Source: Chryseobacterium gleum
GTDB taxonomy: Bacteria > Bacteroidota > Bacteroidia > Flavobacteriales_D > Crocinitomicaceae
Length of the DNA: 64,000 nt
Direction: 5' to 3'
Assembly (NCBI GenBank): GCA_945882095.1
Contig: CAMCWF010000005.1
Span: 1 to 64,000 of the forward strand
Numbering within the stretch: the first letter of the stretch is position 1; every line of letters begins with the position of its first letter. Positions 14,857 through 24,229 of the stretch are shown here, in pieces. The position numbers and the translations under genes are program-made. The notes beneath the pieces are model-generated. The model searched no databases. It saw only the letters and a list, made by a program, of their open reading frames with translations, and was not told the DNA's origin.

Positions 14857-15876
14857 ATGAAAACCTTCTTTTTTTTCCTAATGCTGGCGAACGTAGCCTT
14901 GGCTACAACGCCACTAAAAACGATTGACAACCTACCCTTCCACGAAATCGATGCCCACATGCGTGAGTGCCCTTCGAGCGAGGAAAGCAGCATCGAAAAC
15001 ATCGCCGCTTACATCAATCGAAAAGCGAAAACAGACCTTGATAAAGCGCGCGGTGTCTATGTTTGGATAACGAAGAACATTTCCTATAACGACAAAGGAT
15101 ACAATTCAAAAAACTACGGAGACAATTCCGCGGAAGGAGTCCTGAAATCAAGGGTGGGCGTATGCGCCGGGTATGCCAGCCTATTCGAAGCCTTGGCAAA
15201 AAACACGGGCATCGAAGTCATCTCAATCGTAGGTTATGCAAAGGGAATTGACTATGAGGAGGGGGATCATTTCAGTGAATCAAACCATGCGTGGAACGCG
15301 GTGAAAATAGACAATTCCTGGCGGATATTCGATGCGTGTTGGGGGGAGGGCGCTGGAAGAACAGACAAGAAGGGACGGTTAATATCCATTAAAGAATTCA
15401 ACGACCATTGGTTTAATGTGCCTCCATCCCAGGCTGTATTCACCCATTTTCCTGAAAATCCGATGGAACTCTTTACCACCCAAAAAATAACGTTGGAGGA
15501 TTTTGAAAGCCTACCCGATGTCTCTCCGCATTACCTCCGTCAAGGGTTTCTCACAGCAGAGGAAATCTTGGCAAAATTAAAAACCAAGAAACCCATCATT
15601 TTACCTATTATGTATCAACTGGACGGGGAATACAGCATACGTAAAGCACCAAAAGATCGCACCTTAGCCGTTGGGAAACCGATTGAATTTGAAATCGAAT
15701 GCAACGAACCCGGTGTAAAATTCTATTTACTTGATGAAAACCAAATTTGGAAACCGCTCAAGCGAAACAATGGGAATTACATTGAGCACTATACGCCAAT
15801 GGTTTCCGGAGACCTACAAATCATCGTTCAATCCTCCGCAGGTACCTACGTTTTGATGCGTTACATTGTTGAATAA
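14857..15876 (+). CDS. exported transglutaminase-like (papain-fold) protein
   Basis: The 339-residue product has a signal peptide and a transglutaminase-core domain. The likely triad is Cys in GVCAGYASL (about 107-115), His in NHAWNAVKI (about 149-157) and Asp in RIFDACWGEG (about 162-171). This is the arrangement seen in KY/transglutaminase-like peptidases. The C-terminal about 100 residues look like an Ig-like beta domain. It could cleave or crosslink peptides in the periplasm or at the surface. No neighbour points to a substrate. Confidence 0.8.
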   Translation: MKTFFFFLMLANVALATTPLKTIDNLPFHEIDAHMRECPSSEESSIENIAAYINRKAKTDLDKARGVYVWITKNISYNDKGYNSKNYGDNSAEGVLKSRVGVCAGYASLFEALAKNTGIEVISIVGYAKGIDYEEGDHFSESNHAWNAVKIDNSWRIFDACWGEGAGRTDKKGRLISIKEFNDHWFNVPPSQAVFTHFPENPMELFTTQKITLEDFESLPDVSPHYLRQGFLTAEEILAKLKTKKPIILPIMYQLDGEYSIRKAPKDRTLAVGKPIEFEIECNEPGVKFYLLDENQIWKPLKRNNGNYIEHYTPMVSGDLQIIVQSSAGTYVLMRYIVE

Positions 15877-15970: not shown

Positions 15971-16047
15971 GAATTCAAAAATAGCTTCGACGTCTAAACA
16001 ATAATCACAAATTCGTGTTTAGCAATGGGGTTAAATCACGATATAAA

Positions 16048-16317
16048 ATGGAACAAGTCGACATCGATCGCATCATTGAAATGGCTTGGGAAGACAGAAC
16101 ACCCTTCGAAGCAATTTTTATACAATTTGGCCAAACAGAAACGCAGGTAATTGCATTGATGCGCAAGGAATTAAAACGCAGCAGTTTCATTCTTTGGCGC
16201 GATCGCGTCAACAGTGGGGTAAGCCTAAAGCACGCCAAAAAACGCAATCCAGAAATTCAACGCTTTAAATGTACCCGTCAAACAGGTATTTCGATGAACA
16301 AAATCAGCAAGCGGTAA
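16048..16317 (+). CDS. TIGR03643/DUF2805 family protein, first gene of the light/flavin operon
   Basis: The 89-residue product matches the small TIGR03643 family: about 90 residues, with conserved Trp and Met in IIEMAWEDRTPFEAI, and FGQTETQVIALMRKEL, then FILWRDRV and a basic C-terminus. The segment IIEMAWEDRTPFEAIFIQFG-QTETQVIALMR reads like a helix-turn-helix, so nucleic-acid binding is possible. Function is not established. Its stop codon abuts the ATG of the next gene. The start at 16048 is preferred over in-frame codons upstream because family members begin close to the first helix. In other genomes I recall this family beside photolyase genes. Confidence 0.8.
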   Translation: MEQVDIDRIIEMAWEDRTPFEAIFIQFGQTETQVIALMRKELKRSSFILWRDRVNSGVSLKHAKKRNPEIQRFKCTRQTGISMNKISKR

Positions 16318-17421
16318 ATGAATTTCCCCACCAAATACCATGAAATTCTCGAACGAATTCAGCAAATAGATCCGATAAAGTATGGCGAGACACGTAATTA
16401 TTTGACTGGGGCCGTTACCTACCTTTCCCCTTACATTTCGAGAGGTGTGATCAGTACTAAAATGGTCTTGGATGCAGTTCTTGCCAAAGGACATCAAGTG
16501 GAAGAAATAGAAGATTTCGTCAAAGAATTGTCTTGGCGTGATTACTTTCAACGTGTGGGACAAGTGCGAAACTTGGCATTGGATCTCAAATTTACACAAA
16601 CAGATGTGGCACATCAGGAGATTCCATCCGCGGTGGTGAATGCTCAAACGGGAATTCTTGCCATCGATCAGTCCATCCAACAATTGTATTCCCTCGGTTA
16701 CATGCACAACCACCTGCGTATGTATACAGCCGCATTGGTAACGAACATCGGTAAATCCCATTGGTTTTTACCTTCAAAATGGATGTATTACCATTTGTTA
16801 GATGGCGACTGGGCCAGTAACCGTTGCAGTTGGCAATGGGTGTGCGGTGCAAACAGCAACAAGAAATACGTTGCAAATCAAGAAAACATCAATCGCTTCA
16901 CAGGAATGCAACAACACGGGTCCTTTCTCGACGCGCCCTATGAATACTTGCCACCCAAACAAATCCCGCAAGCGCTATTGGAAACGTGTGAAATTCGGCT
17001 GGAGACCCAACTTCCAACCGTCGAAAAAACAGTTGTGGATGCATCGCTTCCCACGTTTGTTTACAACCCTTACAACCTTGATCCGACCTGGCACCGTGAA
17101 GAAGCGGGCAATCGCATTTTATTACTTGATCCTGTCTTTTTTAAGGAACACCCTGTGAGTTCAAATGTTCTACATTTCATTTTGGAACTTGGAAAGAACA
17201 TTGACAACCTCCAACTTTTCGTCGGGTCTTTTACGGAACTATTGGAAACCCATTCTTTGGGTGAAATTTATTTCAAAGAACATCCCCTGAATGCGGGTTA
17301 TACTGGAACTGAGGAACCGAGGGATTGGATTTCAACGGAACTGACCGGGTATTTCCCTTCTTTCTTCGCCTATTGGAAAGTATTGAAAAAAGAGCTCCTT
17401 CAAAAACAATTACACACATGA
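16318..17421 (+). CDS. photolyase/cryptochrome FAD-binding domain protein with C-terminal alpha/beta-like extension
   Basis: The 367-residue product starts directly with a photolyase FAD-binding domain (about 20-200). Its marks are YLSPYISRG (35-43), FVKELSWRDYFQ (67-78), LYSLGYMHNHLRMYTAAL (123-140) and LLDGDWASNRCSWQW (160-174). The flavin-facing Asn and following Trp residues are present. The N-terminal antenna alpha/beta domain of ordinary photolyases is missing. The C-terminal part (about 235-360), with NRILLLDPVFFKEHP and LQLFVGSFTELL, resembles that alpha/beta domain, which would make the protein circularly permuted. That resemblance is by eye. It abuts TIGR03643 and overlaps the flavin reductase by four bases. 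Confidence 0.8.
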   Translation: MNFPTKYHEILERIQQIDPIKYGETRNYLTGAVTYLSPYISRGVISTKMVLDAVLAKGHQVEEIEDFVKELSWRDYFQRVGQVRNLALDLKFTQTDVAHQEIPSAVVNAQTGILAIDQSIQQLYSLGYMHNHLRMYTAALVTNIGKSHWFLPSKWMYYHLLDGDWASNRCSWQWVCGANSNKKYVANQENINRFTGMQQHGSFLDAPYEYLPPKQIPQALLETCEIRLETQLPTVEKTVVDASLPTFVYNPYNLDPTWHREEAGNRILLLDPVFFKEHPVSSNVLHFILELGKNIDNLQLFVGSFTELLETHSLGEIYFKEHPLNAGYTGTEEPRDWISTELTGYFPSFFAYWKVLKKELLQKQLHT

Positions 17422-18047
17422 TCATTGATGCATCCCAACTCCTTTCATTTGACAATCGTTACCGAGCGATGTTCATCAACTCATTGGCTGGGATAAAACA
17501 AGCCGTTTTGATTGGAACAAAATCATTGGACGGGAATACCAATCTGGCAATTTTTAATTCCTTGGTTCACATTGGAGCGAACCCACCCTTGTGGGGATTC
17601 ATTTGTCGACCTGACATCGTGCAGCGCGACACCTTACGCAACATCCTCGAAACGGGAGCATATACCTTTAACTTGATTCGCAAGGATCATTCTGAGAAGG
17701 CACACCAGACATCGGCCAAATATCCCTGCAATGTTTCAGAATTTGAAGCGTGCGGTTTCACAGAGCGATTTATTGAACCTTTCACTGCTCCTTTTGTCGA
17801 GGAAGCTCCGATTAAAATAGGAATGCAGTTCGAAGAAAAAATAGACATCGCCATCAATGGAACCCTCCTAATCATTGGCAGCATTCAGTACATCGAATTT
17901 GATGAACATTGTTTGTCGGATGATGGATTTATAGATGTGTCAAAAGCGGATACCCTAACCTGCGCCGGCTTAGATGCGTATTATGAAAACCAATTATTGC
18001 ATCGTTTGTCTTATGCTAAACCAGAGAAATGGCCGAGCAAAATATAG
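17418..18047 (+). CDS. flavin reductase-like FMN-binding split-barrel protein
   Basis: The 209-residue product resembles the flavin reductase-like family: [26 protein letters not shown] (about 37-62), with [18 protein letters not shown] following, the usual flavin-pocket layout. Such proteins reduce free FMN/FAD with NAD(P)H or bind FMN tightly. It lies inside a photolyase operon, with a four-base ATGA overlap before it and a 19-base overlap after it. A role in supplying or keeping reduced flavin for the photolyase-like proteins is attractive but inferred. Confidence 0.8.
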
Positions 18048-19510
18048 CCAAACCGGAAATCGTGGTTGTTTGGTTTAAGCGGGATTTACGGTTTACGGAT
18101 CACGAAGCCTTGTTTCATGCCCAAAAACAATCGCTCCCCATCCTCCTACTCTATTGCTTTGAACCATCGGTGATGAAGTACCACGATAGCGATGTTCGGC
18201 ATTGGCGTTTTGTGCATCAATCCTTACGGGAAATGAATGGGAAGCTTAACGCAGGTAACGCACAGCTTTACCTCTTTCATTCGGAAGTAATTCCATTGTT
18301 CAGTGAATTACAAAAAACCTATACCATTCAAACGATTTTCTCTCACCAGGAAGTCGGAAACCGTTTAACTTTCCAGAGGGATAAAAAAGTACAAGCATTT
18401 TGTAACGCACATCACATTAGGTGGAATGAATACACACACAATGCGGTACAACGTGGAGGAAATTCCCGGGTAGGTTGGGAAAAAAGATGGAAGGCCATCA
18501 TGGAGCAAAAGCCTTTTTTAGCATCGGAAAAGGAGTGGAACATACTTGCACTGGAAACGACCACCTATCTTCAGCTGAAAGGAGTCGATTTGCCAATAGA
18601 TATAACTACTGACCATCCCAATTTCCAACCTGGCGGAGAAACTTTTGCTTGGAAATACCTGGACAGCTTTCTTAAGAAACGAAGTGTAAACTATGCAAAT
18701 CACATTTCCAAACCCGCATTGAGTCGAAAAAGCTGCAGCCGCATATCACCCTATTTAAGTTATGGGAACATCAGCATGCGGATGGTGTATCAATATACCA
18801 TGCAGCATTACAAAACCTCGACCCACAAACGTGCCTTGACCCAATTCATTTCTCGTCTGCATTGGCATTGCCATTTCATCCAAAAATTTGAAGATGAATG
18901 TCGAATCGAGTTTGAACCGTTTAACAGGGCCTATCTAGGCAAAGAAAAACCTAAAAATGAATCCTATTTATCCGCTTGGCATGGTGCGAAAACGGGGGTG
19001 CCGCTTGTAGATGCTTGTTTGCGTTGTTTAATCGAAACGGGGTATGTCAATTTTCGAATGCGCGCCATGTTGGTTTCTTTTTATGTCTTTAACCTTGGTC
19101 AAGATTGGCGTGAATTGCATTTTCTTGCGCGTCTCTTTTTGGACTACGAGCCCGGAATTCATTACCCACAGATTCAAATGCAAGCAGGATTAACAGGCAT
19201 GAACATCATTCGGATCTACAATCCAATCAAAAATTCAAAAAAGCACGATGCACAAGGCGAATTCATTCGAAAGTGGGTACCTGAACTCGCTCCCGTTCCC
19301 GACGAATTCATACACGAACCGTGGTTGCTGAGTGAAATGGAACAAACACTTTATTCCTTTCGCATCGGGGTGGATTACCCATTTCCCATTGTAAACCTAG
19401 AAGAAACACAGCGTTCTTCAAGTGAGGAGGTTTGGTCCTTTCGAAAAGAAATCGCCGTTAAGAACGACGCCAAGCGCATTGTGAAAAAACATGTCAACCC
19501 AAGAAAATGA
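18029..19510 (+). CDS. cryptochrome/photolyase family protein with unusual flavin-site residues
   Basis: The 493-residue product has both photolyase domains: N-terminal alpha/beta ([16 protein letters not shown], about 13-28) and C-terminal FAD-binding ([13 protein letters not shown] at 237-249, [14 protein letters not shown] at 274-287, [20 protein letters not shown] at 341-360). The flavin-site segment reads [16 protein letters not shown] (372-387). Aligned by eye with DGDLAxNNGGWQW of CPD photolyases, the Asn near flavin N5 is His and the two Trp become Ile and Met. Activity may therefore differ from classic repair. The gene starts inside the flavin reductase gene and ends in an ATGA overlap with DUF2256. 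Confidence 0.85.
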
Positions 19511-19653
19511 AACAGCGAAAAAAGCGTGATTTGCCGCAAAAAGTCTGTTTGACCTGCCAGCGTCCCTTTACCTGGAGGAAAAAATGGGAAAAAGTTTGGG
19601 AGGAAGTGAAATATTGTAGTGACCGATGTAGAACGAATAAACAACAAGTATGA
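19507..19653 (+). CDS. DUF2256 four-cysteine small protein
   Basis: This 48-residue gene is easily missed because of its size. The product carries CLTC (Cys14, Cys17) and CSDRC (Cys37, Cys41) around the aromatic [11 protein letters not shown] segment, matching the DUF2256 family and likely a zinc-ribbon. Both ends use ATGA overlaps: its ATG overlaps the cryptochrome stop, and its TGA overlaps the next ATG at 19650. Function is unknown; I recall the family as a regular companion of photolyase genes. Nucleic-acid or protein binding is inferred from the metal site and basic N-terminus ([11 protein letters not shown]). Confidence 0.85.
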
Positions 19654-21140
19654 ACGTAGGACTTATTTTTCCGCATCAACTTTTTGAAGAAAACCCAATG
19701 CTTCCAGCATGTGAAATCTTTTATCTGGTCGAAGAATACCTGTATTTTCGACAGTATCCTTTTCACAAACGGAAAATCGCTTTTCATCGGAGCTCCATGA
19801 AACAATATGAAAACTGGTTATTGGCGAAAGGAAAGACGGTAAATTACATTTCAAGCAACGAAGATATTTCCGACATACGTCACCTAATCCCTCACATAAA
19901 GTCGCTTGGAGCTTCAAACATTTATTATGTCGAAACCTCAGATCATTGGTTGGAAAAACACATTTCCCTAGCGTGTCAAGCCGAAGAAATCAAGACAGTC
20001 AAATTTGGGAGCCCGATGTTTTTAAATGACATCGAATCCTTAACTGCGAAATTTGGATCAAAAAAGAAATTGTTTCAAGCGGATTTTTACAAGCAACAGC
20101 GCACACAACGTAGCATTTTGGTGGACACCAACCAGCAACCCCTTGGGGGGAAATGGTCCTTCGATGAAGAAAACCGAAATAAGTTTCCAAAGAAAGGCAT
20201 AGCTCCAGAGATAAAAATTCCCGTATTGAATGAACGAGAACGGGAGGCCAACGCATTTACGGATACTTATTTTTCCAATAATCCCGGGAAATTGAATGGG
20301 TGGATTCAATATCCGACCACCTTTGAAGGGGCAAAGGAATGGTTGCAGCGCTTTTTTACCGAACGCTTTGCGGACTTCGGAACGTATGAAGATGCAATTG
20401 TTAAGGATGAATTGGTTTTGCATCACAGTGTGTTGACACCAATGCTTAACGTTGGGCTTTTGACCCCTCAATTTGTCCTAGATGAAGCACTTAGCTTTGC
20501 TGAAAAGCACAAGATCCCCATGAATTCATTGGAAGGATTTGTACGTCAAATCATGGGTTGGAGGGAGTTCATACGAATGGTTTACGAAATCAAGGGAAAA
20601 GAAGAACGCACACGAAACTATTGGGGATTCAAGCGGAAGATTCCCGAGTCCTTTTGGAAGGGAACGACAGGGATTCCTCCCATTGACATCACCCTTAAAA
20701 AAGTAATTGATACCGGCTATTGTCATCACATTGAGCGCTTGATGGTACTAGGGAATTTCATGTTATTGTGCGAATTTGATCCTGACGAGGTTTACGAGTG
20801 GTTTATGATTTTTTTCATAGATGCGTATGATTGGGTAATGGTTCCCAACATTTATGGAATGAGTCAATTTGCCGATGGAGGATTGATGTCTACCAAACCA
20901 TACATCAGTGGCAGTAATTATTTGATGAAGATGAGTGATTACGAAAAAGGAGATTGGCAAGCGACTTGGGACGGTCTTTTTTGGCATTTCATGAACAAAC
21001 AACGGTCCTTCTTTTTATCGAATCCTCGCTTGGGAATGTTGGTGCATACCTTTGATAAGATGTCGACGGAAAAACAAGAAATTCATTTGACAAATGCAAG
21101 AAACTATTTAGCATCGCTGGACGCTCGAAAGGATGAATAA
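19650..21140 (+). CDS. FeS-BCP/PhrB-type photolyase-related protein (DPRP) lacking cluster cysteines
   Basis: The 496-residue product belongs to the deoxyribodipyrimidine photolyase-related family (FeS-BCP, prokaryotic 6-4 photolyases). Marks are the N-terminal [22 protein letters not shown] (296-309), [18 protein letters not shown] (356-373), [21 protein letters not shown] (391-411) and [16 protein letters not shown] (416-431). Classic members have a 4Fe-4S cluster on one Cys before the CHHI/AHHI helix and three after MSDY. Here those positions read TGIPPID (340-346) and [11 protein letters not shown] (432-442), with a shortened loop and no Cys. The cluster is therefore probably absent. It is the last gene of the operon. 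Confidence 0.85.
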
Positions 21141-21289: not shown

Positions 21290-22690
21290 CTATTGATTTG
21301 ATTTTAGAAATCCTAGTATTTTATCAACGCTTTCTTTTGCATCACCATAGAGCATTTGAGCATTAGGCTTGTAGAATAGAGGGTTTTCAACTCCTGCATA
21401 ACCAACAGACATGGATCTTTTCATTATAATTACATGTTCTGCTTTCCAGGCTTTAATAACTGGCATGCCGTATATGGGACTCGAAGGATCATCCTCTGCT
21501 CCCGGATTTACTATATCGTTCGCACCAATTACCATCACCACATCGGTACTTGCCATGTCATCATTGATTTCATCCATTTCCATAACAATATCATACGGAA
21601 CATTTGCCTCGGCCAATAAAACATTCATATGGCCCGGAAGACGGCCAGCGACAGGATGAATCGCAAAACGAACTGTCTTACCTGATTTCTGTAATTCTTT
21701 AACCATTTCATAAATTGGATATTGGGCCTTGGCAACTGCCATTCCATATCCCGGAACTACTACGATTGTTTTAGCTTCTTTCAGTAATTGTGACACTTCA
21801 TCGTGCAGTAAAGCGGTAATTTCCCCTTCGATTACGGTAGATGCTGAACTTGTAGAAATTGTCCCAAAACCACCAAGAATTACAGATATAAATGACCTAT
21901 TCATTGCTTTGCACATAATTATAGAAAGAATTGCACCAGAACTTCCAACTAAAGCCCCTGTAATAATTAACAAATCATTCCCTAACATAAATCCAGCGGA
22001 AGACGCTGCCCATCCTGAATAGGAATTTAACATGGAAACGACTACAGGCATATCTGCTCCTCCTATCGCCATGACTAAAAAATATCCAATAAGTCCAGCA
22101 ATAAAAGTCATTACCAAAAGATAAGTTAATCCATGTTCGTTTGCGGAATTCACAAAAAACACACCCAACACTATACAAGCCAGCACTAAAAAGATATTGA
22201 GAAAATGGCGACCTTTAAATATCAAAGATTTACTAGAGATTTTACCATCCAGCTTCCCCCATGCTACGATCGATCCTGTAAATGTTATGGCACCGATAAA
22301 TACACCAATAAAAACTTCTGTTAGGTGAATCGTTTTTTCAGTATTCGTTATTTCTTTAATTCCGACATCAAGAAATGATCCAATGCCAACAAGAACAGCA
22401 GCTAACCCAACAAAACTGTGAAGAACCGCAACCAATTGAGGCATTGATTCCATTTTTACACGTCTAGCGAGCATGATCCCAATAGAGGAAGCCGCTACTA
22501 TAGCCACTATGATATATATGTGACCTTGGACATCTTTTCCAAAAACAGTAGTTACAACAGCTACGAGCATTCCAAGAATCCCATAAAGAACCCCTCTCTT
22601 GGATGATTCAATAGATGATAAACCACCTAAACTTAAAATAAATAATATACTGGCAAAAACATATGCTGCTGTTTGTATTCCTGAGATCAT
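21290..22690 (-). CDS. pntB: NAD(P) transhydrogenase subunit beta
   Basis: The 466-residue product is the beta subunit of proton-translocating transhydrogenase, which passes hydride between NADH and NADP+ and pumps protons across the inner membrane. Its N-terminal two-thirds are membrane helices (domain II). The C-terminal NADP-binding domain III (about 290-466) shows [30 protein letters not shown] and [23 protein letters not shown]. Length is normal. It follows pntA by six bases in the same direction, so they form one operon. Confidence 0.95.
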
Positions 22691-22696
22691 AATCGA

Positions 22697-24229
22697 TTAT
22701 TTTTTAAACATTTTTAGCATTCGCTGTGTAACGAAAAATCCTCCAACTATATTAATGCATGCAAAGAAAATAGCTATGACAGCTAAAACACTGCTTAAAT
22801 TTATGCTGTCTTTCGTTTGGAGTAAACCACCAACAACTATGATTCCACTGATGGCATTGGTAACGGCCATTAAAGGTGTATGCAATGAATGTGCAACATT
22901 CCATATTACCTGCCATCCTATGAAAACAGCCAACACAAATACCGTAAAATGCTGCATAAATTCTGCAGGTGCAACTTGTCCTAAGCTTAATAACAGCAAA
23001 CCGACACATCCTAGTTTGATAATCATCGACCATCCATTGTTTTTATTCTTATTTTTTAGTTCCTCCTTTTGTTGATCTTGACTAGGAGCTAGAACTTGAG
23101 GTTTTATTGAGCTAACAGGTAAGGGTTCAGGTGGCCAATTTACTTTACCATTGTGGGTTACCATTGCTCTTGAAATGATCGTATCCTCCATGTTAATATT
23201 CCAATTTTCAGCTTTTCCCATATCGTCCAACATATGGCATAAATTATTACCATAAAGTTGAGATGATTGTGCCGGTAACTGATTTAATTTTCCTATAATG
23301 GTGACGCCATTTTCTGTTTTAAAAATTTCTCCATTCTTGGTTAAAACACAGTTTCCTCCAGAAGATACGGCTAAATCAACTATTACAGATCCCGGTTTCA
23401 TGACAGCAACATGGCTTTCTAAAATTAATTTTGGCGCCTCACGACCAGGAATTTGCGCAGTTGTAATGATAATGTCAACTTCCTCGGCTTGTGCTTTAAA
23501 CAGCGCCATTTCTGCAGCAATAAATTCCTCACTCATTTCCTTTGAATAACCAGAATCTGTCGCACCATCTTCGTTGATATCAATGGTGAGAAATTGAGCT
23601 CCCATTGATTGAATTTGCTCAGCAACTTCTTTCCGAGTATCAAAAGCTCTTACTATTGCTCCCAAAGAATTTGCTGCGCCAATGGCCGCTAATCCGGCAA
23701 CACCCGCACCAATCACTAATACTTTTGCAGGCTCTACCTTTCCAGCAGCAGTGATTTGACCATTCAAGAACCGACCGAAATAAAATGCTGCATCAATTAC
23801 AGAACGGTATCCTGCGATGTTCGCCATAGAGGATAAAACGTCAACCTTTTGAGCCCTAGAAATTCTAGGTATAGCGTCCATTGCAATACAACTAATGTTT
23901 TTCTCTGCTAATTTTTGAAGAAGTTCTTGATTTTGTGCAGGTCTCATAAAACTTAACAAAACAGTTCCGCTAACCATTATGTCAAGCTCTTTTAATGTTG
24001 GTTCATTAACCTTCAATATAATAGCTGAATTGTTGTAAATGTCAATTGCGTCATTTACAATTTGGGCTCCTGCATTTTGAAACTGAAGATCTGAAAAATT
24101 TGCTTTTTCTCCAGCATTACGTTGGACAATTACTTTAAAACCTTGTTTAAGTAATCGTTTCACTGTTTGTGGGGTTGCAGCTACGCGCGATTCATTAAAC
24201 AAAACTTCAGATGGAATTCCTACTATCAT
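22697..24229 (-). CDS. pntA: NAD(P) transhydrogenase subunit alpha
   Basis: The 510-residue product is the long alpha subunit. The N-terminal NAD-binding domain I (alanine-dehydrogenase-like) has [17 protein letters not shown] at the start and the dinucleotide fold [20 protein letters not shown] at about 170-189. A linker follows, and the C-terminal third holds four membrane helices from about 400, of domain II. This is the E. coli-like two-gene arrangement, not the split three-gene form. With PntB it makes NADPH at the expense of proton-motive force. The segment sits inside an 18-bp direct repeat pair, so it may have been acquired as a block. Confidence 0.95.

Follow-up and report, generated by a model that had tools for sequence, protein, structure and literature searches.

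A candidate photoreactivation module in Bacteroidota: six contiguous genes for three photolyase-family proteins, a flavin reductase and two small companions

Introduction

Why should three different photolyase-family genes, a flavin reductase gene and two genes for small orphan proteins be packed end to end? Contig CAMCWF010000005.1 of a genome assembly catalogued as Chryseobacterium gleum (GenBank GCA_945882095.1) carries such a row within the 64,000-nucleotide stretch analyzed here (positions 1 to 64,000, hereafter the window), and we refer to its members as g1 to g6 (Table 1). With moderate confidence, we consider the row to be a Bacteroidota photoreactivation module in which the repair of ultraviolet (UV) photoproducts would be divided among the six products. 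Clustered or light-responsive photolyase genes have been described elsewhere: the accessible text of PMC9649867 reports a UV-B-inducible operon of two photolyases in Synechococcus sp. PCC 7335, and that of PMC5241685 and PMC11976125 reports that blue light induces cry/phr genes in Vibrio cholerae, with the response running through ChrR/sigmaE and MerR.

Results

As the initial annotation had stated, six plus-strand genes follow one another with contact or overlap at all five junctions (in order, stop codon touching ATG, ATGA, a 19-base overlap, ATGA and ATGA), and they are presumably co-transcribed. The family names given there are confirmed by matches of all six window proteins above the curated Pfam or NCBIfam cut-offs: g1 scores 110.9 bits for DUF2805 (cut-off 22.5) and 108.1 for TIGR03643 (66.55), g3 57.9 for Flavin_Reduct (27), g5 81 for DUF2256 (25), and g6 161.6 for DPRP (22.1) and 27.9 for FAD_binding_7 (27), while g4 exceeds the cut-offs of both DNA_photolyase (84.4 bits) and FAD_binding_7 (199.4 bits).

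To place this arrangement within the genus, the window was compared with 14 further regions, namely the 15 best g4 matches besides its own genome minus one (G393); the sample therefore represents the closest relatives by g4, with more distant g4 carriers of the genus outside it. Nine of these 15 regions have the full series g1-g2-g3-g4-g5-g6 (the window, L291, L292, L293, L294, L296, L297, L298 and L299). The operon runs off the contig in L295, g3 is missing from L300, L301 and L302 contain g2 to g6 with no g1 within the stretch, and L303 and L304 contain g3 and g4 alone of the six. Genus-wide, g4 is present in 58 of 71 genomes. By g4, the nearest contig that bears a name is L087 (80%); its label, Flavobacteriales, is the basis for assigning the host to the Bacteroidota. 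Ratios of nonsynonymous to synonymous substitution rates (dN/dS) against the window, calculated for five relatives, range from 0.02 to 0.20 across the operon genes wherever dS could be estimated, indicating purifying selection. A further gene lies directly 3' of g6 in five relatives and is absent from the window (L293 5878-6363, L294 5840-6352, L296 5842-6348, L297 639-1160 and L298 5933-6442); that of L293 belongs to Cupin_5 (DUF985), and the other four look similar by eye.

The association extends through the phylum. Among 296 same-phylum genomes, in which DUF2805, g2, g4, DUF2256 and DPRP (the g6 family) were counted, the families occur in 84, 17, 40, 94 and 100 genomes, respectively; the g2 set leaves out G377, whose match is limited to the flavin domain, and counts G247 once despite its two g2 pieces, and the g4 set leaves out 10 of 50 genomes whose matches of about 143-175 bits were read as other classes. 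DUF2256 and DPRP are found together in 86 genomes (31.8 expected; within 6 kilobases [kb] of each other in 33), DUF2805 and DUF2256 in 70 (26.7 expected; 24 within 6 kb), and g4 and DUF2256 in 38 (22 within 6 kb). All 17 g2 genomes carry both DUF2256 (12 within 6 kb) and DPRP (11 within 6 kb), and 39 of the 40 g4 genomes carry DPRP. Every pair of families reaches p < 1e-5 except g2 with g4 (5 genomes, 2.3 expected, p=0.06), with the caveat that these p values overstate independence, since the species are related. In 62 windows centered on g4, DUF2805 stands beside it in 23, g3 in 22 and DUF2256 in 44; beside 24 class I cyclobutane pyrimidine dimer (CPD) photolyase genes the corresponding counts are 0, 0 and 2. 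This control is rough: the filters retained 24 of 30 class I and 62 of 80 g4 loci, and the class I set, besides having shorter windows, was drawn by a different sampling scheme from the g4 set. In other forms of the island (L035-L081), extra members recur in the g1-g3 and g4-g5 intervals, namely clusters whose single scanned representatives belong to DUF2452 (16 loci), DUF2071 (16 loci) and the short-chain dehydrogenases (12 loci), and a DASH-type gene is found after g6.

Parts of the system also travel on plasmids. A flavin reductase belonging to the g3 family stands next to g4 in Vibrio pelagius, Vibrio sp. THAF190c and V. fortis (311, 309 and 225 bits, the last from a V. fortis gene cut by the stretch), and a DUF2805 gene lies 1.4, 4.0 and 3.0 kb away, respectively. 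On the Salinivibrio kushneri and Tritonibacter plasmids g4 overlaps DUF2256 or has it next, and on the Pseudoalteromonas xiamenensis plasmid none of its companions lies within the stretch viewed. DUF2805 matches occur in 43 plasmid records, and among the nine whose neighborhoods were viewed, four contain a photolyase-family gene (the three Vibrio and Acinetobacter sp. WY4), three have an adjoining DUF2256 (WY4, Pseudoalteromonas THAF3 and A. pseudolwoffii), and the stretches of Pseudoalteromonas CF6-2, Nostoc and V. coralliilyticus have neither. DUF2256 matches occur in 30 plasmid records, of which Tritonibacter and Spirosoma were viewed; the Spirosoma stretch contains no photolyase. In Acinetobacter WY4 a DUF2805/DUF2256/g6-type group is followed by genes for a lipocalin, a desaturase, an FAD (flavin adenine dinucleotide)-dependent oxidoreductase, DUF1365 and a cyclopropane synthase, which we take to be photo-oxidative-stress genes. 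Together, the 296-genome survey and several of these plasmids substantiate the suggestion that TIGR03643 and DUF2256 are companions of photolyases, and gene order and co-occurrence show the conserved unit that had been proposed, rather than genes rarely found together.

The initial annotation had gone further and placed three flavoproteins and their reductase in one complex or one pathway. A single physical assembly, including the small proteins and directed at one unusual lesion, would be compatible with the translational overlaps and the conserved order. Yet many genomes have the modules at separate sites: of the 39 genomes holding both g4 and g6, only 9 have the two within 6 kb of each other, the figure for g1 and g6 is 13 of 70, L303 and L304 have g3 and g4 without the other four, and in Vibrio only g1 is near that pair. 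In addition, relatives of g2 and g6 have been reported to act as single enzymes. We therefore judge the assembly improbable, and the notion of one complex or pathway is not supported.

What, then, are the individual proteins? The most unexpected is g4, which falls far below the cut-offs of both the DASH family (TIGR02765, 148.9 bits against 317.05) and the E. coli-type photolyases (PRK10674, 151.5 bits against 506). A tree of 65 flavin domains separates it from both DASH and class I, in a clade of 20 rows (support 100/100) whose stem measures 2.7 changes per column and whose members include Vibrio, Salinivibrio, Pseudoalteromonas, Tritonibacter and Persicobacter; Tritonibacter has a long row, and the placing of long branches in this tree is flagged unsure. 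We then aligned 106 g4 sequences (76 from loci collected by g4 search, 27 from same-phylum genomes and 3 from plasmid records) using E. coli numbering and residue roles that we take to apply here, with N378 as the flavin-N5 Asn and W382 as the proximal Trp. None of E274, N341, N378, W382 and W384 is kept in any of them: all 106 have Arg, Phe, His and Met in place of E274, N341, N378 and W384, respectively, and Ile, Leu, Phe or Val in place of W382, leaving the proximal Trp absent throughout. By comparison, all 10 class I and all 15 DASH rows retain E274, N341, N378 and W382, and at the W384 position the class I rows have Trp and the DASH rows Tyr. In g4 the R278 position is His or Gln and the T235 position Cys, while the equivalents of W277, W306, W359, R344 and D372 are retained in 105 or 106 of the sequences. 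Thus, g4 shares with CRY-DASH and the class I CPD photolyases its fold family and these five residues, and differs from them in forming its own clade and in the seven altered positions. The motifs also hold in seven of seven plasmid proteins examined, Vibrio and Salinivibrio included.

The absence of the catalytic residues of both classes might indicate that g4 is simply a class I or DASH protein that has degenerated and retains little or no function. Such decay is at odds with replacements that are uniform over all 106 sequences, in Vibrio and Salinivibrio as well, with the full support for the clade, and with dN/dS values of 0.05 and 0.09 in the two measurable comparisons. The uniformity and the selection argue for a different function for g4 rather than decay, and degeneration, already disfavored, seems to us highly improbable. 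The proximal Trp normally serves flavin photoreduction. Because its loss should impair that process, the adjacent flavin reductase would be a natural electron source for g4. Taken as a whole, these features raise the possibility, which we regard as tentative and rather doubtful, that g4 founds a distinct functional class within the photolyase/cryptochrome family. In that class the invariant Arg/Phe/His/Met pocket would stand in place of the CPD-splitting residues, the flavin, in the absence of the proximal Trp, would be reduced by g3 and not by light, and the protein would catalyze a light-driven, or even a dark, reaction whose substrate, a photoproduct or nucleic acid, lies beyond the reach of known photolyases, DUF2256 serving as zinc-finger specificity factor.

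In contrast to its earlier description as an FAD-only protein, g2 is predicted to have a further alpha/beta domain of about 130 residues at its C terminus. The AlphaFold2 model of g2 has a mean predicted local distance difference test score (pLDDT) of 95.4, and residues 1-215 align with the photolyase flavin domain (1iqr, Z 15.8 over 212 residues). Modelled alone, the C-terminal domain (residues 238-367, pLDDT 93.0) has only photolyases and cryptochromes in rows 1-6 of VIA-align, with the alignment in five of these falling in the antenna-type domain at the N terminus (chain ~2-170); the best is 8ijy (Z 7.6, root-mean-square deviation 2.2, 95 residues aligned, chain 2-128), with 6kii at Z 7.3. 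Directly below them rank universal stress proteins (Z 6.4), which this fold superfamily would lead one to expect. Three features taken together, the photolyase flavin domain, the lack of an N-terminal domain and the specific match of the C-terminal one, lead us to predict that g2 has an inverted order, flavin domain first and photolyase-like alpha/beta domain last, like that of NewPHL/Phr7. We had considered this topology as new and rejected the idea, as the accessible text of PMC9426592 already describes a NewPHL/Phr7 class with an N-terminal FAD domain and an atypical C-terminal photolyase domain, whose members repair CPDs in single-stranded DNA; the name NewPHL is also used, citing Emmerich et al. 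2020, in the part of PMC13274461 available to us.

The g2 family keeps the residues of CPD photolyases, with the E274 equivalent in 9 of 10 members and those of W277, N341, N378, W382 and W384 in 10 of 10, and the distal Trp306 equivalent is replaced in all ten. A Ruegeria relative groups with g2 in the flavin-domain tree (98/83), on a long branch flagged unsure. Like NewPHL/Phr7 and the short photolyase-like proteins, g2 rarely coexists with CRY-DASH: among the 100 genomes with the g6 family, CRY-DASH above its curated cut-off is found in 1 of 17 with g2 versus 63 of 83 without (p=7e-8), and by genus in 2 of 12 versus 30 of 45 (p=0.0025). In genus g135, one species has g2 without DASH and the other DASH without g2. 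This near-exclusion fits a functional swap, and Emmerich et al. reportedly propose NewPHL as a substitute for DASH photolyases; characterized NewPHL members include those of D. shibae and M. mesophilicum. Replacement of class I CPD photolyase by g2 was rejected, because 11 of the 17 g2 genomes, including that of the window, have a match read as class I, and 6 have none. G377 encodes a 268-residue photolyase-like frame with a flavin domain only and a cysteine cluster (G377:C393:9925-11224, in L128), about 0.6 kb from DUF2256, which we take to resemble the published short photolyase-like proteins (Xu et al. 2021).

Full-length similarity and the DPRP domain place g6 in the prokaryotic 6-4 photolyase family, and its solved relatives at E <= 1e-69 are the 6-4 photolyases 7ykn, 9hnk and 4dja and the R. 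sphaeroides cryptochrome B 3zxs. Contrary to what the name FeS-BCP would require, the four [4Fe-4S] iron-sulfur (Fe-S) cysteines are gone: among 51 family members compared, the window included, the loop with three of them is ten residues shorter in g6, where it also shows as a deletion against 7ykn, and the column of the first cysteine is replaced. Fe-S-less members are already published (PromaPL and subgroup M, in the accessible text of PMC9178010). With these and Phr2, g6 shares a DPRP N-terminal domain, nearness to solved 6-4 photolyases and the missing cysteines, and it differs from them in being coupled to DUF2256 and often to g2. From its sequence relatives, repair of 6-4 photoproducts appears more likely for g6 than repair of CPDs. 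At 51 loci seeded by g4 or DUF2805, some of them short or cut, g2 is present in 14 of 17 with the Fe-S-less form versus 0 of 34 with the Fe-S form. A strict pairing of g2 with Fe-S-less g6 was considered and reduces to a tendency, the Fe-S-less form being found in 14 of 17 g2 genomes and 17 of 40 non-g2 genomes that were hand-chosen from 83 (p=0.008).

The two small proteins are well conserved. In DUF2256 four cysteine columns and a WRKKWE core are invariant in 14 of 14 aligned sequences, and DUF2805 has a fixed basic tail ending in NKISKR or a near variant; comparison of either with solved structures gave no significant match. DUF2256 was considered as an Fe-S cluster donor. It accompanies Fe-S-less g6 in 25 of 31 typed genomes and Fe-S g6 in 23 of 26, and is therefore unlikely to be merely such a donor. 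Weak matches of helix-turn-helix type occur in 1-3 of 17 DUF2805 members, none in g1 of the window. Many genomes of group g29 contain a divergent second DUF2805 paralogue (~92-102 residues, ~69-84 bits; for example G120, G124, G154 and G165), some of them with that copy alone, and two same-genus genomes have partial second matches with an internal stop that are probably decaying duplicates (G021:C3:15028-15183 and G043:C7:14936-15112). On three Vibrio plasmids DUF2805 lies directly beside parB/parA and on the Nostoc plasmid near parA/parB (L279 7977-10609, L285 7977-10608, L307 4977-7600 and L282 4304-7225), and in the other five plasmid stretches viewed it is not directly adjacent to par genes; this proximity possibly hints at DNA binding by DUF2805, or may reflect chance or common descent.

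Upstream of g1 lies a putative operator- or promoter-like element, TAAACA-N13-CGTGTTTA, which is the sole exact match in the genome (the reversed control pattern gave 0). By eye, near-copies precede gene 1 in L291, L298 and L300, and looser versions occur in L292-L294, L296 and L297. A scan for sigma-70 promoters and terminators returned no more than shuffled sequence did, and a PHROGs search gave weak or uninformative matches only. The 5' neighbor of the operon is a long plus-strand frame (14857-15876) outside these families, and the operon is taken to end at 21140 because the next frame (21290-24229) is on the minus strand.

Table 1. Features of the six-gene locus in the window.
Feature	Position	Strand	Basis
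Candidate operator- or promoter-like element TAAACA-N13-CGTGTTTA, upstream of operon	15995-16021	+	Pattern match
g1, DUF2805/TIGR03643 small basic protein, 89 residues	16048-16317	+	Pfam 3.8e-32; NCBIfam 108.1 bits
g2, predicted inverted-topology photolyase (NewPHL/Phr7 type), 367 residues	16318-17421	+	Predicted structure; FAD_binding_7 66.4 bits
g2 domains: FAD ~1-222; alpha/beta ~238-366	within 16318-17421	+	Predicted structure
g3, split-barrel flavin reductase, 209 residues	17418-18047	+	Flavin_Reduct 57.9 bits; PDB 3fge E 1.1e-55
g4, photolyase-fold protein of a separate clade, 493 residues; replaced R276, F342, H378, I382, M384	18029-19510	+	Profiles, tree, residue alignment
g5, DUF2256 four-cysteine mini zinc-finger-like protein, 48 residues	19507-19653	+	Pfam 6.7e-23
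g6, relative of the prokaryotic 6-4 photolyases (DPRP) that lacks the four Fe-S cysteines, 496 residues	19650-21140	+	PDB 7ykn E 1.5e-73

The element and the small proteins bear on another interpretation, in which g4 is a blue-light receptor, the HTH-like DUF2805 its output regulator and the repair genes the target operon. A cryptochrome may tolerate the replacement of five repair-related positions seen in g4, a few DUF2805 members show the weak helix-turn-helix likeness, and the palindromic element before g1 is unique in the genome. Signalling cryptochromes, however, carry a long C-terminal tail, and g4 stops about 25 residues past its flavin domain. Moreover, according to the accessible text of PMC5241685, a triple cry/phr knockout in V. 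cholerae left the blue-light-regulated gene set unchanged, an argument tempered by VcCry2 being only possibly g4-like. That possibility comes from the Vibrio plasmid g4 proteins, whose identity of ~44-46% suggests that VcCry2 (VC1392) may share the g4 clade; VcCry2 is perhaps also the "phr1-like" gene named in the available part of PMC9426592. On balance, we hold the receptor interpretation to be unlikely.

Discussion

Our analysis favors a photoreactivation module with division of labor. In this module, g2 most likely takes on the splitting of cyclobutane dimers in single-stranded DNA, which CRY-DASH performs in relatives, and g6 most likely repairs 6-4 photoproducts. Remodelled at five of the compared flavin and lesion positions, g4 probably acts on another photoproduct or performs other flavin chemistry. 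Reduced flavin would most likely be supplied by g3, for which g4, lacking the proximal Trp, is the best suited partner, and DUF2805 and DUF2256 would be small accessory proteins, probably binding nucleic acid. Of the earlier proposal that the locus handles an unusual lesion or senses light, the idea survives mainly for g4, while g2 and g6 resemble published repair classes.

Several observations weigh against this assignment of roles. The photolyase match of the g2 C-terminal domain is structural and middling, a Z below 8 being middling if taken alone; Foldseek returned nothing for this domain at E <= 0.001 and no photolyase among its best 50, its best rows being other folds; profile comparison was weak (P 0.007-0.35), and comparison of the domain profile with the single Ruegeria relative examined gave no match. 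Over all 296 genomes CRY-DASH is found in 1 of 17 with g2 versus 69 of 279 without, at p=0.06 only, an effect that is weaker because most genomes have neither. Three of the 17 g2 genomes carry the Fe-S form of g6, and for the Fe-S-less Phr2 action on CPDs and not on 6-4 photoproducts has been suggested (PMC9426592, in its accessible text). Some of the compared residues persist in g4, and g3 accompanies it in only 22 of the 62 g4-centered windows, besides being missing in L300.

The locus resembles the Synechococcus PCC 7335 operon in its overlapping photolyase genes, which are presumably co-transcribed here as has been demonstrated there; that operon differs in having two genes of other photolyase classes and, in the accessible text, no mention of DUF2805, DUF2256 or a flavin reductase. 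From NewPHL as published, g2 differs in sitting in a six-gene operon, none such being found in the accessible papers, and in a C-terminal domain without detectable sequence match to one alphaproteobacterial relative. In open-licence full text we found no paper on TIGR03643 or on DUF2805 with photolyase, an absence of little weight there, and matches listed for photolyase with circular permutation look unrelated. Nor is this six-gene operon described in the accessible open-licence photolyase literature (for example PMC9649867, PMC9178010 and PMC9498864), again a weak absence. What is new is g4 and the firm association of the reductase, DUF2805 and DUF2256 with this photolyase system, g2 and g6 being of recently known kinds.

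These results place two orphan families, DUF2805 and DUF2256, with bacterial photoreactivation, and DUF2256 proves almost coextensive with the prokaryotic 6-4 photolyase family, the two sharing 86 genomes of their 94 and 100. The exclusion between g2 and CRY-DASH provides independent support for a functional swap. Finally, the role of the g4 proteins now annotated as photolyases in Vibrio, Bacteroidota and roseobacters becomes a testable matter, with named residues and a named redox partner.

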